A stretch of DNA of 64,000 bases, taken from contig NZ_VIVK01000002.1 of assembly GCF_007828865.1 (NCBI RefSeq), positions 186,001 through 250,000 on the forward strand, in the 5' to 3' direction. Source of the DNA: Kribbella amoyensis. Lineage in GTDB: Bacteria > Actinomycetota > Actinomycetes > Propionibacteriales > Kribbellaceae. Of the stretch, positions 55,202-61,118 are shown piece by piece. The notes below the pieces were generated by a model. The model made no database searches and was not told the DNA's origin. It saw nothing but the letters and a program-made list of their open reading frames with translations. The translations under genes and the position numbers were made by a program. Positions within the stretch are counted from its first letter, which is position 1, and each line of letters starts with the position of its first letter.

Positions 55202-56025
55202 TCGCCCGGGACCGGATCAGCAAGCTCACCGCGAACCTGGTCCTGCTCGCCATCGGCATCCTCTTCGTACTGCCGTTGCTGTGGGTGCTGTTCGCCTCGA
55301 TCAACCGGACCGCCGGGCTGCGGGTCGAGTTCCCGACCGAGCCGACGCTCGGCAACTTCAAGGCGGTGCTGAACACCGACACGACGTACCGGCCGGTGTT
55401 CAACGGGATCGTGCTGTGCGGCGGATCCGCGCTGCTGACGATGGTCTGCGCGGTGCTCGCGGCGTACCCGCTGTCGCGGTTCAAGTCGAAGTTCAACCGG
55501 CCGTTCCTGCTCACCGTGCTGTTTTGCACGGGCCTGCCGATCACCGCGGTGATGGTGCCGGTGTACGGGCTGTTCGTCCAGCTCAACCTGGTCGACACGA
55601 TCGGCGGCACCATCATGTTCATGGCGACCTCGTCGTTGCCGTTCGCGATCTGGCTGACCAAGACGTTCATGGACGGCGTGCCGATCTCGCTCGAGGAAGC
55701 GGCCTGGGTCGACGGGGCCGGCAACATGCAGGCGCTGCGGCGGATCGTGCTGCCGCTGATGTGGCCGGGGATCGCGGTCGTGCTGATCTTCACCTTCATC
55801 GGGATGTGGGGGAACTTCTTCGTTCCCTTCATGCTGCTGCTCTCGCCCGAGCGGTTGCCGGCGTCGGTGAGCATCTTCACCTTCTTCGGTCAGTACGGTG
55901 AGCCGAACTACGGGCAGCTGGCGGCGTACTCGCTGATCTACACGTTCCCGGTCCTGATGCTCTATCTCTTGCTCAGCCGGAAGCTGGGCGGGGCGTTCGC
56001 GTTGGGCGGCGCGATCAAGGGATAG
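55198..56025 (+). CDS. Sugar ABC transporter permease (MalG-like)
   Basis: 275 residues, six helices (LVLLAIGILFVLPLLWVLFA first). The EAA loop is SLEEAAWVDGAGNMQALRRIVLPL, and PTLGNFKAVL and AAYPLSRFKSKFNR are usual for MalG. No ATPase gene follows, so the system likely borrows a shared MsiK-type ATPase, as CUT1 importers of streptomycetes do. The operon ends at the hairpin at 56089. Confidence 0.92.
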   Translation: MIARDRISKLTANLVLLAIGILFVLPLLWVLFASINRTAGLRVEFPTEPTLGNFKAVLNTDTTYRPVFNGIVLCGGSALLTMVCAVLAAYPLSRFKSKFNRPFLLTVLFCTGLPITAVMVPVYGLFVQLNLVDTIGGTIMFMATSSLPFAIWLTKTFMDGVPISLEEAAWVDGAGNMQALRRIVLPLMWPGIAVVLIFTFIGMWGNFFVPFMLLLSPERLPASVSIFTFFGQYGEPNYGQLAAYSLIYTFPVLMLYLLLSRKLGGAFALGGAIKG

Positions 56026-56088
56026 GTACTTCTTTCTTTCCCCACAGCGAGTTCCTGGGTGGTGCCGGGTGGGTGGTGCCCAGGTTGA

Positions 56089-56125
56089 CGGAAGAGGAGC
56101 CGTGCGCCACATGGCTCCTCTTCCG
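56089..56125 (+). terminator. Terminator after the sugar importer operon
   Basis: CGGAAGAGGAGCC and GGCTCCTCTTCCG form a perfect 13-bp stem with an 11-base loop, followed by CTGTTT. It separates the importer from the unknown cluster that starts at 56202. Confidence 0.75.
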
Positions 56126-56201
56126 CTGTTTCGACGGCTCCGGTCGTAGTACTGTCCGGGGACGCACAGTGTCGTCGTGACAGCTGGGGGTGATCGCGAC
56201 C

Positions 56202-57491
56202 GTGCAGTCAGTCGGTGAGCTGATGGCTCACGCTGTCGAGACGTTTCTGCGCACCCGCAGCCGGCCGGATGCCGGCGCCGCGATTTCGGCGGCGAAGGCG
56301 ATGACCGCCGCCGACCGGGCCGGGTTGTCGCCAGACCTGCGGTACCTCGCCGACGTGTTCGTCGGGCTGAACGTCCACGAAGCCGCCCGGGAGCTGTCCA
56401 CGACGGCGGCTTCGGCGCACAGTGCCTTCCTTCGCAGCCACCGGACGGAGTTGCTCCGGTGCGCCGTCGTGCTCGGTCAGCTCGCAGTGTTGGCCGAGGG
56501 CCCCGATCCCAACGTCGCGTTGCTCAATCGGATCCAGCTCGGGTCGATCCTGCAGACGAACTTCCACCACCAGTACGACCTCGGCAGTCTGTTCGAGTCC
56601 GTCACCGTGCTGCGTGACGTCTTCAACGAGCTCACCACTCTGCACGTGCTGTGGACGGCCGCGGCCACCCAGTTGGCGATCGCGCTGGTGATCTCGGCCG
56701 AGCACCAGCTGGAGAACGTCTCCCTGGTGGAGGCGGAAGCGCTGTACCAGGACGTCTTCAGGTTGGTGCCCCATCACCCGGAGATCGGTGCCGAGCACCA
56801 CAACTACGCGGATCTGCTGCGGGTGAAGTATCAACGGGAGAAGGATCCCGCGCTGCTGGAAGCCAAGATCGAGCAGCATCGGCTGGCGGTCGAGCGGTCC
56901 CCCGACGGACATCCGGCGGACGCCATCCGGCGAACCGCCCTGGCGAACGCGTTGCTGAACCGGTGTCTGCTGACCGGTGGGACGAACGACCTGGACCTGG
57001 CGCTCGACGTCCTGGCGAAGGTCCCGGCGGCGGGGACCGTTCTCCCGCCGGTCGACCTCACGATCCTGCGCGCGTCCTTCCTGTTGCTGCGGTACGACAG
57101 TCTGCGTCGCGCTGACGATCTCGAGGCGTCGAGGCGGCTGCTGATCGAAGCCTCCGGATCAGTGGATCCCGCCCACGCGCCGGCGGCGGTTCAATCCCTG
57201 ACCGGCCTGCACCTGCTGATCGAGGCAGACGCCAGAAGGAGTGAGGAGGTCGCCGCGGAGGCGTTCAAGACGCTGATCGCGGCCGTCGGGCTCGACCGTA
57301 CCTTGACCTCCCCGCGGTGGGCTCTGCTCGCCCTGGCGGAGGCCTGGCCCGGCAGCAGCGAATTCACCGCAACCGCGGACCGGCTTCGGGAGGACACCGA
57401 TCGGTGGGACACGCTCGACGCCTGGCAGAGCGATCCGTCGGCGGTTGTCGCGAAGAGGTACTACCTACGAAGGAGTGGTTCCCTTGGCTGA
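56202..57491 (+). CDS. TPR-like repeat protein of unknown function, first gene of a four-gene cluster
   Basis: 429 residues, soluble, no signal. GTG 56202 is chosen because GGGGGTGATC, close to the anti-ribosomal consensus, precedes it by about 7 bases; GTG 56190 is an alternative. The protein is nearly all helical. Residues about 165-300 look like tetratricopeptide-type repeats of the kind found before CHAT domains in actinobacteria: EAEALYQDVFRLVPHHPEIG, HHNYADLLRVKYQREKDPAL, EAKIEQHRLAVERSPDGHPA and RRTALANALLNRCLLTGGTN, with the DPALLEAKIEQHRLAV spacing. There is no CHAT, caspase or other catalytic domain at either end. The role as sensor or scaffold is inference. It overlaps the next small gene by 8 bases. 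Confidence 0.72.
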   Translation: MQSVGELMAHAVETFLRTRSRPDAGAAISAAKAMTAADRAGLSPDLRYLADVFVGLNVHEAARELSTTAASAHSAFLRSHRTELLRCAVVLGQLAVLAEGPDPNVALLNRIQLGSILQTNFHHQYDLGSLFESVTVLRDVFNELTTLHVLWTAAATQLAIALVISAEHQLENVSLVEAEALYQDVFRLVPHHPEIGAEHHNYADLLRVKYQREKDPALLEAKIEQHRLAVERSPDGHPADAIRRTALANALLNRCLLTGGTNDLDLALDVLAKVPAAGTVLPPVDLTILRASFLLLRYDSLRRADDLEASRRLLIEASGSVDPAHAPAAVQSLTGLHLLIEADARRSEEVAAEAFKTLIAAVGLDRTLTSPRWALLALAEAWPGSSEFTATADRLREDTDRWDTLDAWQSDPSAVVAKRYYLRRSGSLG

Positions 57492-57702
57492 CCAGGACCC
57501 GCAGGCCGAGCAGCCGCCGGATCCCGGACCGGCCGACCCACCCGGTGGGACCGAGAAGGACGGCATCGTCATCCCGGGCCGGTTCCAGATCAAGCTCGTC
57601 GGCGGGCTGCAATCGCGCCGCTCGGCGAAGCGGAACCGATCGACCGGGGCGGACGAGGAGTCCGGCGAGAAGGCCGGCGGCGACAGGACCGGGGACGCAT
57701 GA
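57484..57702 (+). CDS. Small 72-residue acidic/basic linker protein in the four-gene cluster
   Basis: Unrecognised. The start is a TTG at 57484, because AAGGAG at 57470-57475 stands 8 bases before it, while the in-frame GTG at 57475 touches that ribosome site. The first 25 residues are Asp/Glu/Pro-rich (ADQDPQAEQPPDPGPADP), then a short hydrophobic strand GIVIPGRFQIKLVGGLQ, then a basic and finally acidic Gly/Glu tail. It is probably disordered outside the strand, and may dock on a partner through GIVIPGRFQIKL. Overlaps both neighbours (8 bases before, 4 after), so its product is made in step with theirs. Confidence 0.62.
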   Translation: MADQDPQAEQPPDPGPADPPGGTEKDGIVIPGRFQIKLVGGLQSRRSAKRNRSTGADEESGEKAGGDRTGDA

Positions 57703-58199
57703 GCGACACCGTCGGCGAGGTACTGGCCGCGGAACTGCGCGAGACGATGGCCACCGAGCGGGCCAGGAAGTCCTCGATCGAGGCCAAGGGGTTGTCGGTG
57801 GTGACGACCTGCGGGGCGTTCCTCACCTTCCTCTTCGGCTTCGCGACTTTCGTCGGAGTCCGGGAGGGCGTCGAGCGGTCGGGCCTGGTACTGGCCCTGG
57901 TCAGTGCCGGTGTCGTGCTGCTCGCGGCGGCGTGCCTGCTCGGCATTCTCTGCAGCCTGCCCGGCCTGTACCACGAGATCGAGACGGAGAGTCTGCGGAC
58001 GATGGCGTCCCCCGACGTGTGGGAAGAGGACGGTACGGAGGCGCGCCGGGAACTGGCCCTTGCGCGCATCCTGCAGGCGTCGGACTGGCACCGGCGGAAC
58101 ACGATCAAGGCGCGGGTGCTGCTGGTGGCGATCGCGCTGGAGGCGCTGGGCGTGATCGCGGTCGGCTTCGACGTGATCGTCCTCGCGCTGCGGTGGTAG
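57699..58199 (+). CDS. Three-helix membrane protein in the four-gene cluster
   Basis: 166 residues; start ATG overlaps the stop of the small gene. An amphipathic N-terminal helix (EVLAAELRETMATERARKSS) leads into three hydrophobic segments: SVVTTCGAFLTFLFGFATFV (about 33-52), LVLALVSAGVVLLAAACLLG (about 65-88), and ARVLLVAIALEALGVIAVGF (about 140-166). Between the second and third is a charged cytoplasmic helix pair with LYHEIETESLRTMASPDVW. The EAKGLSVVTT-type entry into the first helix recalls small actinobacterial membrane proteins often linked to conflict modules, a recollection only. Could be a pore or membrane anchor for the cluster. Confidence 0.72.
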   Translation: MSDTVGEVLAAELRETMATERARKSSIEAKGLSVVTTCGAFLTFLFGFATFVGVREGVERSGLVLALVSAGVVLLAAACLLGILCSLPGLYHEIETESLRTMASPDVWEEDGTEARRELALARILQASDWHRRNTIKARVLLVAIALEALGVIAVGFDVIVLALRW

Positions 58200-58203
58200 G
58201 GCC

Positions 58204-59781
58204 ATGTCGATTCCCGCGCGCCACGTGCTGTACCCGGACGGCTGGTCCGATCACGGGCTGATCGCCCAGACGGACTGGGCGACCGGCTGCATCCGCTGGT
58301 TCGAGCGGCAGGAGGAGATCCTCGCGATCCAGCAGCGAGCGTCCGATCCCAGCACGGTCAGCGAGAGTGACTGGGAGCTGGTCGAAGCGAACGTGCACGA
58401 GGTCACGCATGTCCTGCAGATGGCCTCGACCGGCTTCGCCTTCACCGTCTCGCAGAACCTCTTCACGGTGGTCGAGTCCGCCGTCGAACAGTACGGCGAT
58501 CTGGGCAGCGTCTTCGAGCACCGGGACGAGTTCACGCCGCGGATGGCGTCGGGCCTGACTGTCCTCGACCGGCCGGGGGACCGCGGACTCACCCCGCGCG
58601 CGATCCTGGAAAGTCTCGCCTTCATCCAGCAGAAGTTGCACGCCTACCGGGGGTTGACCCTGGCTGAGCTGATGTCCCTGGTCGACGACGGCGCGGCCGA
58701 GCACTCCTACCGATCCGCGTTCGACGTCGCGGTCGAGTACCTCGGTGACAGCGCGCCGAGGCTGTTCGTCCAGGCGGCGAACCTGGCCCTGTACACAGCC
58801 GAGCCGGAGACGGTTTTCATCCCCTTGCTGGCGGAGTTCGCGGCGAAGGCGTCGCGGACGAGTCTGCAGTCGAACCACCGGATCGGGACGGACCTGCTCG
58901 GCCGCCGGTACGCCGGGCTCGTGCTCGGCACCGCGGAAAGCCTGACCATGGCCGGGCACAGGCATCCGACCTTGGATCACCATGTGATGACGTTGTCGAG
59001 CCATGCCCGCCGGCAGGTCGGAGCCTACGCGGAGGTCTACTCGGCGCCGCTCAGCGAGGAGCTGCTCGGCGTGATCCAGCCGACGATGGCGTTCCCGCCC
59101 ACCGAAACAGGACAGACGCCGATGATCTCCTCGCCCGCGGACCAGCGGATCGAGCAGGACGGCCGGAGCATGTCACTGTTCCGCTACTACCTCGCGGTGA
59201 GCGTGATCCTTCAGCAGAACCTGCCGGACCTCGCCTTCACCGAACCGGTGCCCACGCCCGAGGCGCAGGCTGTCGCAGCCCGGCCGATCGTGGAGCCCAG
59301 GGTCTCGCTGCTGCGCCTCACCGGGAACGACCTGCGCTCGGAGACGGAAGTGGCGGCGTGGTGTGCTGTGCTGGAGCGGCTGAGCGCCTCCCCGGAGTCC
59401 GCGCGGAGCAACCGGGGGATGGTGTTCGTGGAGTTCGTGGACGCCGACCTTGCCGACGCCGGCGTCCAGGCTTGTCTGCGGGCCTTCTTCGCGAGAGTTC
59501 CGCACCTGCTGTACTTCCTGGCGCAGGACGACGGCTATCTGGGCGAATCGTTGAGCTACGCCTGGGCCGCGTACGCCGCGGAGGATCAGGTCAGGATGCC
59601 CGACGGGCGGATCGGGGTGCGGCTGAACGAGCGAACCGTCGAGGTCGCCGTCCGGGTGGTGCGCGCCGCGGCTGACTTCGCGGAGCAGTTGGGTGAGGCG
59701 GGCACGACGATGCTGGTCCACCTGGAGGGTCTGCCGGTGGACGGAGCCGCGCAGATCCGCCGGCGGGTCTTCGGCGGCTGA
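58204..59781 (+). CDS. Putative zinc metalloprotease-like protein (HEVTH) in the four-gene cluster
   Basis: 525 residues, no signal peptide, 4 bases after the membrane gene. Residues 60-72 (LVEANVHEVTHVL) carry an HExxH motif with H65, E66 and H69 at the end of a helix, the zinc site of gluzincin-type proteases. E136 in RAILESLAFIQ, about 67 residues later, has the ExxA form of the third ligand. The rest has a His-rich GHRHPTLDHHV (about 259-267) and a second domain from about 360 (VSLLRLTGNDLRSETEV, GMVFVEFVDADL, VPHLLYFLAQDDG). Known HExxH families with this layout were not recognised. Catalysis is inferred from the motif. It likely acts with the three genes before it. Confidence 0.7.
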   Translation: MSIPARHVLYPDGWSDHGLIAQTDWATGCIRWFERQEEILAIQQRASDPSTVSESDWELVEANVHEVTHVLQMASTGFAFTVSQNLFTVVESAVEQYGDLGSVFEHRDEFTPRMASGLTVLDRPGDRGLTPRAILESLAFIQQKLHAYRGLTLAELMSLVDDGAAEHSYRSAFDVAVEYLGDSAPRLFVQAANLALYTAEPETVFIPLLAEFAAKASRTSLQSNHRIGTDLLGRRYAGLVLGTAESLTMAGHRHPTLDHHVMTLSSHARRQVGAYAEVYSAPLSEELLGVIQPTMAFPPTETGQTPMISSPADQRIEQDGRSMSLFRYYLAVSVILQQNLPDLAFTEPVPTPEAQAVAARPIVEPRVSLLRLTGNDLRSETEVAAWCAVLERLSASPESARSNRGMVFVEFVDADLADAGVQACLRAFFARVPHLLYFLAQDDGYLGESLSYAWAAYAAEDQVRMPDGRIGVRLNERTVEVAVRVVRAAADFAEQLGEAGTTMLVHLEGLPVDGAAQIRRRVFGG

Positions 59782-59825
59782 CGCTCGCCCGGCCTGGTGC
59801 TGCGGTGACCGCGTAGGGTGGCCGC

Positions 59826-61118
59826 ATGCCGTTGACTTATCCGCTGGTGGAGCAGACTTTGGACAACGGGCTTCGCGTGGTGGTGAGCTCGGACCGCGCG
59901 GTGCCGATCGTGGCTGTGAACCTCTGGTACGACGTGGGATCGCGGCACGAGCCGCCGGGGCTGACCGGGTTCGCGCACCTGTTCGAGCACCTGATGTTCC
60001 AGGGCTCGCGGAACGTCGAGTCGGGACAGCACTTCTCCTTGCTGGAGTCGGCGGGGGCGAGTCTGAACGCGAGCACGTTCTTCGACCGGACGAACTACTT
60101 CGAGTCGTTGCCGAGTGGCGGCCTGGATCTGGCGTTGTGGCTCGAGGCGGACCGGATGGGCTTCCTGCTCGACGCGGTGAACCAGGAGAACCTGGACAAC
60201 CAGCGCGACGTGGTCAAGGAGGAGAAGCGGCAGAGCTACGACAACCGGCCGTACGGTGACTCCTACGAGCGGCTGGTGCGGCTGATGTTCCCCGAGGGGC
60301 ACCCGTACGCGCACATGACGATCGGGTCGATGGCGGATCTGGACGCCGCTTCGGTGGAGGACGTGCACGCGTTCTTCCGCAAGTACTACGGGCCGAACAA
60401 CGCGGTCCTCACGATCGTCGGGGACGTCAGCGAGGACGACGCGTTCGACGCGGCGAAGAAGTACTTCGGGCACCTGCCCGCAATCCCGCAGCCGCCGGCC
60501 GCGCCGGACGGGACGATCGGGCCGCTGGACGGGGTGTTCCGTGACGACGTCGTCGACGACGTGCCGTCGGACCTCATCACGATGATGTTCCGGCTGCCGG
60601 TGGACGGGACGGCCGAGCTGGACGCGGCCGCGTTGGCGCTCGACGTGCTCGCGGGCGGGCAGAGCGGCCGGCTCAACCGGCGGCTGGTGCGGGACGAGCA
60701 GATCGCGCAGTCGGTGTCGGGTGGCGCGTTGCCGCTGATCGGCGGGGTGTCGTTCGGCACGCTGACCGGGATCGCCTCGGAGGGCGTGGACCTGCAGAAG
60801 GTCGAGGACGCCCTGCTCGAGGAGGTCGAGAAGCTCGCCGCCGACGGCGTCACCGAGGACGAGCTGGCCACCGCGCAGGCGCAGGCCGAGCGGGACTGGC
60901 TCGAGCAGCTCGCCACCTGCGCGGGCCGGGCGGACGAGATCTCCCACCACGCGCTGCTGTTCGGCGACCCGCACAAGATCAACACCCGGATCGACGAGAT
61001 CCGCGCCGTCACCCCGGCGCAGGTGCGGCAGGCCGCGGCCGAGTGGATCCGGGCCGAGCGGCGGGCGCAGATCACCTACCGGCGACCGGCCGGCACCGAG
61101 GGAGAGGAGCAGGCATGA
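59826..61118 (+). CDS. M16-family zinc peptidase, active subunit
   Basis: 430 residues. The inverted zinc motif HxxEH is present in GFAHLFEHLMFQG, with the downstream Glu in the ESLP/LEADRMGF region. The C-terminal half has the usual inactive copy and the TGIASEGVDLQKVEDALLEE segment. No signal peptide, so cytoplasmic or loosely exported like bacterial PqqL/insulinase relatives. The stop overlaps the next start (ATGA), which encodes the partner subunit; such pairs form an active/inactive heterodimer. Confidence 0.9.
   Translation: MPLTYPLVEQTLDNGLRVVVSSDRAVPIVAVNLWYDVGSRHEPPGLTGFAHLFEHLMFQGSRNVESGQHFSLLESAGASLNASTFFDRTNYFESLPSGGLDLALWLEADRMGFLLDAVNQENLDNQRDVVKEEKRQSYDNRPYGDSYERLVRLMFPEGHPYAHMTIGSMADLDAASVEDVHAFFRKYYGPNNAVLTIVGDVSEDDAFDAAKKYFGHLPAIPQPPAAPDGTIGPLDGVFRDDVVDDVPSDLITMMFRLPVDGTAELDAAALALDVLAGGQSGRLNRRLVRDEQIAQSVSGGALPLIGGVSFGTLTGIASEGVDLQKVEDALLEEVEKLAADGVTEDELATAQAQAERDWLEQLATCAGRADEISHHALLFGDPHKINTRIDEIRAVTPAQVRQAAAEWIRAERRAQITYRRPAGTEGEEQA

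Follow-up and report, generated by a model that had tools for sequence, protein, structure and literature searches.

Protease-controlled membrane damage or cell suicide is exerted by CHAT or caspase proteases together with gasdermins, and by Borvo, whose BovA is a CHAT protein. Actinobacterial TPR-CHAT loci, including those of CATRA type, presumably serve in defence or self-killing, occur sporadically and commonly have a small gene and a compact membrane protein near the TPR-CHAT gene. Small multi-helix membrane proteins serve as effectors in Pycsar and CBASS (PycTM and 2TM effectors), and in conflict loci of actinobacteria FxSxx-COOH systems (TIGR04267) combine an HExxH protein with a small gene that is divergent. 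Kaur et al. 2020 (PMC7159879) reported conflict systems of actinobacteria to which a zincin-like metallopeptidase and a small, fast-diverging precursor are coupled. In Craspase of type III-E CRISPR (Csx29 TPR-CHAT, Csx30, and Csx31), the TPR-CHAT protease cleaves Csx30, so releasing a held partner (PMC10028731). Here, a cassette of four open reading frames (ORF1–ORF4) of Kribbella amoyensis is analysed, located in a stretch of 64,000 nucleotides of contig NZ_VIVK01000002.1 (the window). The cassette is tentatively read as a laterally acquired, conflict-type variant of the actinobacterial modules of TPR-CHAT protease, small protein and membrane protein, in which sensing and proteolysis would lie on separate chains; judged from sequence comparisons, this falls somewhat short of an even chance.

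With TPR-CHAT and CATRA loci the cassette shares the class of TPR repeat, a small gene next to a compact membrane protein, and sporadic occurrence, but CHAT is lacking, the TPR repeats are on their own chain, an HExxH protein is present instead, and the membrane protein is of another family, that of locus L151 excepted. None of the four products matches the NCBIfam CATRA models, and pairwise comparison with a CATRA protein gave E 0.32. Craspase also has a TPR-linked protease and releases a partner by cleavage of a companion, whereas here no CRISPR was seen, the candidate metallopeptidase is separate, and the presumed output is a membrane protein, not a sigma factor. The presumed logic of protease-controlled membrane damage or suicide is that of the gasdermin systems and Borvo, but ORF3 is a three-helix protein without gasdermin match and ORF4 has no CHAT match. 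ORF3 is a small multi-helix membrane protein like the effectors of Pycsar and CBASS, but has itself no PADLOC match, and no nucleotide cyclase is evident in the window.

The likeness to FxSxx-COOH systems lies in the HExxH protein and the small divergent gene. It could mean that the cassette processes or signals with a peptide, FxSxx-COOH or Rap-Phr style: ORF4 would cut or modify a precursor encoded by ORF2, ORF3 would export or receive the peptide, and ORF1 would be its intracellular TPR receptor. ORF2 is small and fast-diverging, as are the precursors in the systems of Kaur et al. (PMC7159879), and Rap proteins are among the weak Foldseek matches of ORF1. However, ORF4 matches no NCBIfam model, including the HExxH peptide-modification model TIGR04267, which has no match elsewhere in the genome either; ORF2 ends in GGDRTGDA, with no FxSxx at its C-terminus; no radical SAM gene is among the four; and the ORF2-ORF3 pair is found without a protease elsewhere. 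Peptide processing is considered improbable.

The four genes run in one direction at 56202–59781 (Table 1), with gaps of exactly -8 (ORF1/ORF2), -4 (ORF2/ORF3) and +4 (ORF3/ORF4) bases, and, judged by position, they are translationally coupled. They are flanked by a sugar-ABC permease gene on the left (stop at 56025) and an M16 peptidase gene on the right (start at 59826). An earlier annotation made from the letters of the DNA only (the sequence-only reading) had given this layout, with its gaps and the M16 start, exactly. It had also placed a strong terminator at 56089; the hairpin there is strong, but the T-run is absent from 56089–56125, so that it is terminator-like only. ORF1 could also start further upstream, at a GTG at 56190, which gives 433 residues. 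Searches of Pfam, NCBIfam, PADLOC (PADLOC-DB 2.0), and PHROGs gave no meaningful match for any of the four proteins.

By profile comparison, ORF1 is a CHAT-less protein with repeats of the TPR-CHAT class, the type that, according to the sequence-only reading, usually precedes a CHAT protease in actinobacteria. A repeat hidden Markov model of 43 residues, derived from TPR-CHAT proteins encoded on plasmids of actinobacteria, scored 19.7 bits against ORF1, above the peak of 16.5 bits in 2000 shuffles, and the two best repeats begin 44 residues apart. Among the 40 match sites of ORF1 that were followed up in 395 genomes of the class, 32 fall within TPR-CHAT genes; four further sites have no gene call. 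The best tblastn match of the repeat core among 72,556 plasmids is a weak one (E 0.2) to a CHAT protein adjoining CATRA-annotated conflict genes, and pairwise BLASTP of ORF1 with this protein gave E 2e-5 and 6e-5. The single-sequence model of ORF1 is all-helical, with a pLDDT (predicted local distance difference test score) of mostly 60–90 at residues 214–400; Foldseek found nothing for it at E <= 0.001, the top matches being TPR proteins with weak E-values. Pfam CHAT matches none of the four proteins. The sole CHAT protein found in this genome is encoded on another contig, and its repeats are, by eye, of a different kind.

ORF3 has hydrophobic helices at residues 34–52, 63–81 and 143–161, in agreement with the three-helix membrane protein proposed earlier, and similarity searches make it the founding member of an unrecognised membrane family with five relatives. 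Four of these come from the class genomes (L122/L150, L130/L151, L143/L152, and L123/L200), and the fifth, WP_095663100.1 of Mycobacterium intracellulare plasmid NZ_CP023152.1 (L202:7820-8504), turned up when plasmids were searched with the consensus of the family. A model of any five members picks up the sixth at 49–129 bits, against a peak of 12.2 in 1000 shuffles (ORF3 itself at E about 1e-21), and the three helices are in matching positions throughout. Viral contigs and phages yielded no relative with queries of this family. DUF2721 of Pfam was rejected as the identity of the relatives, its matches being under the family cut-off, and the weak PADLOC matches of single members (PycTM, E 0.056; 2TM Effector, E 0.019) are not significant.

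Because a small gene lies directly upstream in all six members (40, 54, 64, 64, 72, and 126 codons; spacing -20 to +32 nt), ORF2-ORF3 is a conserved two-gene module, which elsewhere either stands by itself or adjoins a TPR-CHAT gene. The small products are mostly Pro-rich or acidic and disordered-looking. Small ORFs are common in GC-rich DNA, and the coding signal is weak for the small genes of L151, L152 and the plasmid; third-position GC is high (0.88–0.92) in ORF2, L150, and L200, with 0.88, typical of real genes, in ORF2. The closest parallel to the cassette is the row at L151:8938-13280, in which the small gene and the ORF3 relative are followed 44 bp later by a 1192-residue CpXC-TPR-CHAT protein (CHAT E 5.5e-49; Csx29-like 1.6e-7). 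On the plasmid, the relative and its 54-codon upstream ORF directly follow a tyrosine-recombinase cluster, with a cytosine methyltransferase gene upstream.

The strongest rival explanation takes ORF2-ORF3 as a self-sufficient pair of the toxin-antitoxin kind, a small inhibitor and a membrane toxin, with ORF1 and ORF4 as accessory or independent passengers and no proteolysis of the pair. In L150, L152, L200 and on the plasmid, neither a TPR nor a protease gene is linked to the pair. Toxin-antitoxin genes typically have this layout, in which the first gene is small and overlaps the second, and a congener (G032) carries a Gp49/HTH toxin-antitoxin pair at the same site. Since the four genes here are coupled with no gap above 4 bp, and the pair adjoins a TPR-CHAT gene in L151, this explanation is considered rather unlikely.

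A sensor with a small protein, a membrane protein and a protease is, by gene-neighbourhood comparison, a recurring plan. A protein of 150–340 residues with at least two hydrophobic helices is encoded within two genes of 21 of the 34 TPR-CHAT genes, which had been selected for likeness to ORF1; among more distant genes the background is 11/255 (4.3% per gene, or ~16% expected over four neighbours), the gene calls being made by script and approximate. Most of these membrane neighbours have ~310 residues with a gene of 120–145 residues alongside, and three have 207 residues. The larger protein, usually with the 120–145-residue gene, flanks TPR-CHAT in L160, L163, L167, L168, L175, L181, L183-L185, L188, L190, L191, and L197; the variant with the 207-residue protein has a CxxC small protein (L186, L189, and L195). 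Representatives (L160, L186, and L118) match no Pfam family over the cut-off. At L115:6202-10766, a TPR gene of 472 residues and a CHAT gene in a different frame share 55 nt, which gives the look of a TPR-CHAT gene broken by a split or a frameshift.

ORF4 is a putative zinc metallopeptidase on the strength of its motif. Both the HEVTH at H65-H69 and the E136 named by the sequence-only reading are present, but E136, within 'ILESLAF', is not singled out, with E91 and E95 just as eligible for the role of third ligand. HExxH arises in 2.5% of ORF4 shuffles, which makes chance improbable yet not negligible. No full-length homologue was found in the genome contigs (searched with peptide patterns), plasmids, phages, or viral contigs, and the motif HExxHxLQxxSTG matched only ORF4 itself in the 395 genomes. 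Several candidates were discarded: matches to a GC-rich variant of the motif in viral contigs and weak matches in L003-L005 and L088-L089 proved spurious on inspection, and 19 matches of PHLLYFL in genome contigs were judged to be chance. Residues 363–525 of ORF4 share 27% identity over the domain, and PHLLYFL, with a standalone protein of 165 residues (L002:1474-1971 = L087:9252-9749). This relative lies close to a contig end and is rare even within its own family.

The shuffle frequency, the missing family match of ORF4 and the lack of evident defence genes nearby, by inspection, would also suit an incidental HEVTH, with ORF4 a scaffold or other enzyme and the cassette an operon for membrane stress or regulation that has no link to defence. 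However, ORF1 and the ORF3 family are both tied to the TPR-CHAT theme, and sporadic occurrence at a variable site is not suggestive of housekeeping; this reading is held to be distinctly unlikely.

The site itself varies in the genus. All 38 genomes searched within the genus keep the permease and M16 genes, although the two are differently arranged in several congeners. The interval between them (56026–59825; congener loci L069-L083) measures 3,800 bp here vs 15 bp in G035. It is occupied by the Gp49/HTH pair in G032, and carries MFS-like and SMP-30-like genes in G034 and G006, as identified by reading translations. ORF1 and ORF4 have no match in 36 congeners. A lone congener match of ORF3 (E 6e-4) was spurious, with two internal stops. 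Because the interval varies among congeners and ORF1 and ORF4 were undetected in 36 of them, the cassette is accessory, and gene gain is the simplest reading of the site from these comparisons. A hotspot with differing cargo might also have gathered four unrelated passengers that are co-transcribed by accident. Against such a chance assembly, judged highly improbable, stand the overlaps of starts and stops among genes of one direction, and the fact that 6/6 family members keep the order ORF2-ORF3.

Table 1. Features of the four-gene cassette (positions in the window).
Feature	Position	Strand	Evidence or remark
Terminator-like hairpin, 3′ of sugar-ABC operon, left cassette border	56089..56125	+	-33.2 kcal/mol, z -6.1
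ORF1, 429 residues, GTG start, CHAT-less TPR protein of TPR-CHAT class, putative sensor/scaffold	56202..57491	+	
Two best TPR-CHAT-type repeats of ORF1, residues 201-271	56802..57014	+	10.6 and 9.9 bits, 44-residue spacing
Ribosome-binding site AAGGAG, 8 nt ahead of ORF2 TTG	57470..57475	+	Sequence
ORF2, 72 residues, TTG start, Pro/Gly/acidic, disordered-looking except for one short, strand-like core; putatively an inhibitor, an adaptor or a substrate of the protease	57484..57702	+	
Short hydrophobic/basic core of ORF2 (GIVIPGRFQIKLVGG)	57562..57606	+	L150 counterpart carries TDWVKTIQIKRIL
ORF3, 166 residues, ATG start, three-helix membrane protein, putative membrane effector	57699..58199	+	Leave-one-out 77 bits; helix positions agree in six members
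ORF4, 525 residues, ATG start, HExxH protein, putative metallopeptidase	58204..59781	+	
HEVTH motif of ORF4 (H65-E66-H69)	58396..58410	+	
E136 of ORF4, candidate for the third zinc ligand alongside E91 and E95	58609..58611	+	
C-terminal domain of ORF4, residues 363-525	59290..59778	+	One standalone relative, 165 residues, in L002

What the sequences establish is the coupling of the genes, the repeat class of ORF1, the ORF2-ORF3 module and the variability of the site; the functional steps are all inferred. The roles of sensor, cleaver, guard and effector are proposed by analogy with Craspase. ORF1 would sense an invader or stress signal and activate ORF4, which would act as a zinc metallopeptidase and cleave ORF2 or the ORF2/ORF3 complex. 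ORF2 would be a guard whose loss frees ORF3, and the freed ORF3 would permeabilise the membrane, so that the cell is arrested or killed.

Several observations weigh against the conflict-type cassette. The pair stands without adjoining TPR or protease gene in four of the five other genomes. ORF3 is not detectably related to the 310-residue and 207-residue partners of TPR-CHAT genes, the kinship having been rejected at hhalign probabilities of 0.6% and 5.9%. ORF4 has no full-length homologue in 59 relatives, the 395 class genomes, or 394 genomes of the genus of G076, and its single-sequence model (pLDDT 38.8) is too low to use. The four genes together were seen in this genome and in no other genome examined, and a reading of the window's called gene list, with no profile search of the neighbours, made no known defence gene evident.

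The sequence-only reading had proposed a plan of sensor, adaptor, pore, and protease with sensing and cleavage on separate chains. The separate chains hold, since the sensor-like ORF1 and the candidate protease ORF4 are separate genes. The plan recurs at TPR-CHAT loci, L151 included, but the ORF3 family differs from most partners there. Homologues that mostly stand alone would have spoken against that reading, and in part they do, as the solitary pairs indicate. The joint occurrence of all four genes is confined to this genome, although in L151 the small gene and ORF3 relative lie beside TPR-CHAT. Overall, the type of module stands, its pair is often solitary, and the zinc protease is a candidate role only.

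The conflict-type reading can be taken further, to a metalloprotease-based form of the TPR-CHAT cell-suicide modules, in which a separate zinc protease, governed by a CHAT-less sensor, destroys the ORF2 guard and unleashes ORF3 effectors, whose family also circulates as a guard/toxin pair and beside a TPR-CHAT protease. This fuller version is doubtful. If true, different protease classes would be able to drive a single output module interchangeably, and a three-helix membrane protein with its tiny companion would be a portable killing cassette attached to differing sensors. It would also give a testable role, as substrate or guard and as membrane effector, to the small and membrane genes that lie beside many actinobacterial TPR-CHAT proteases.

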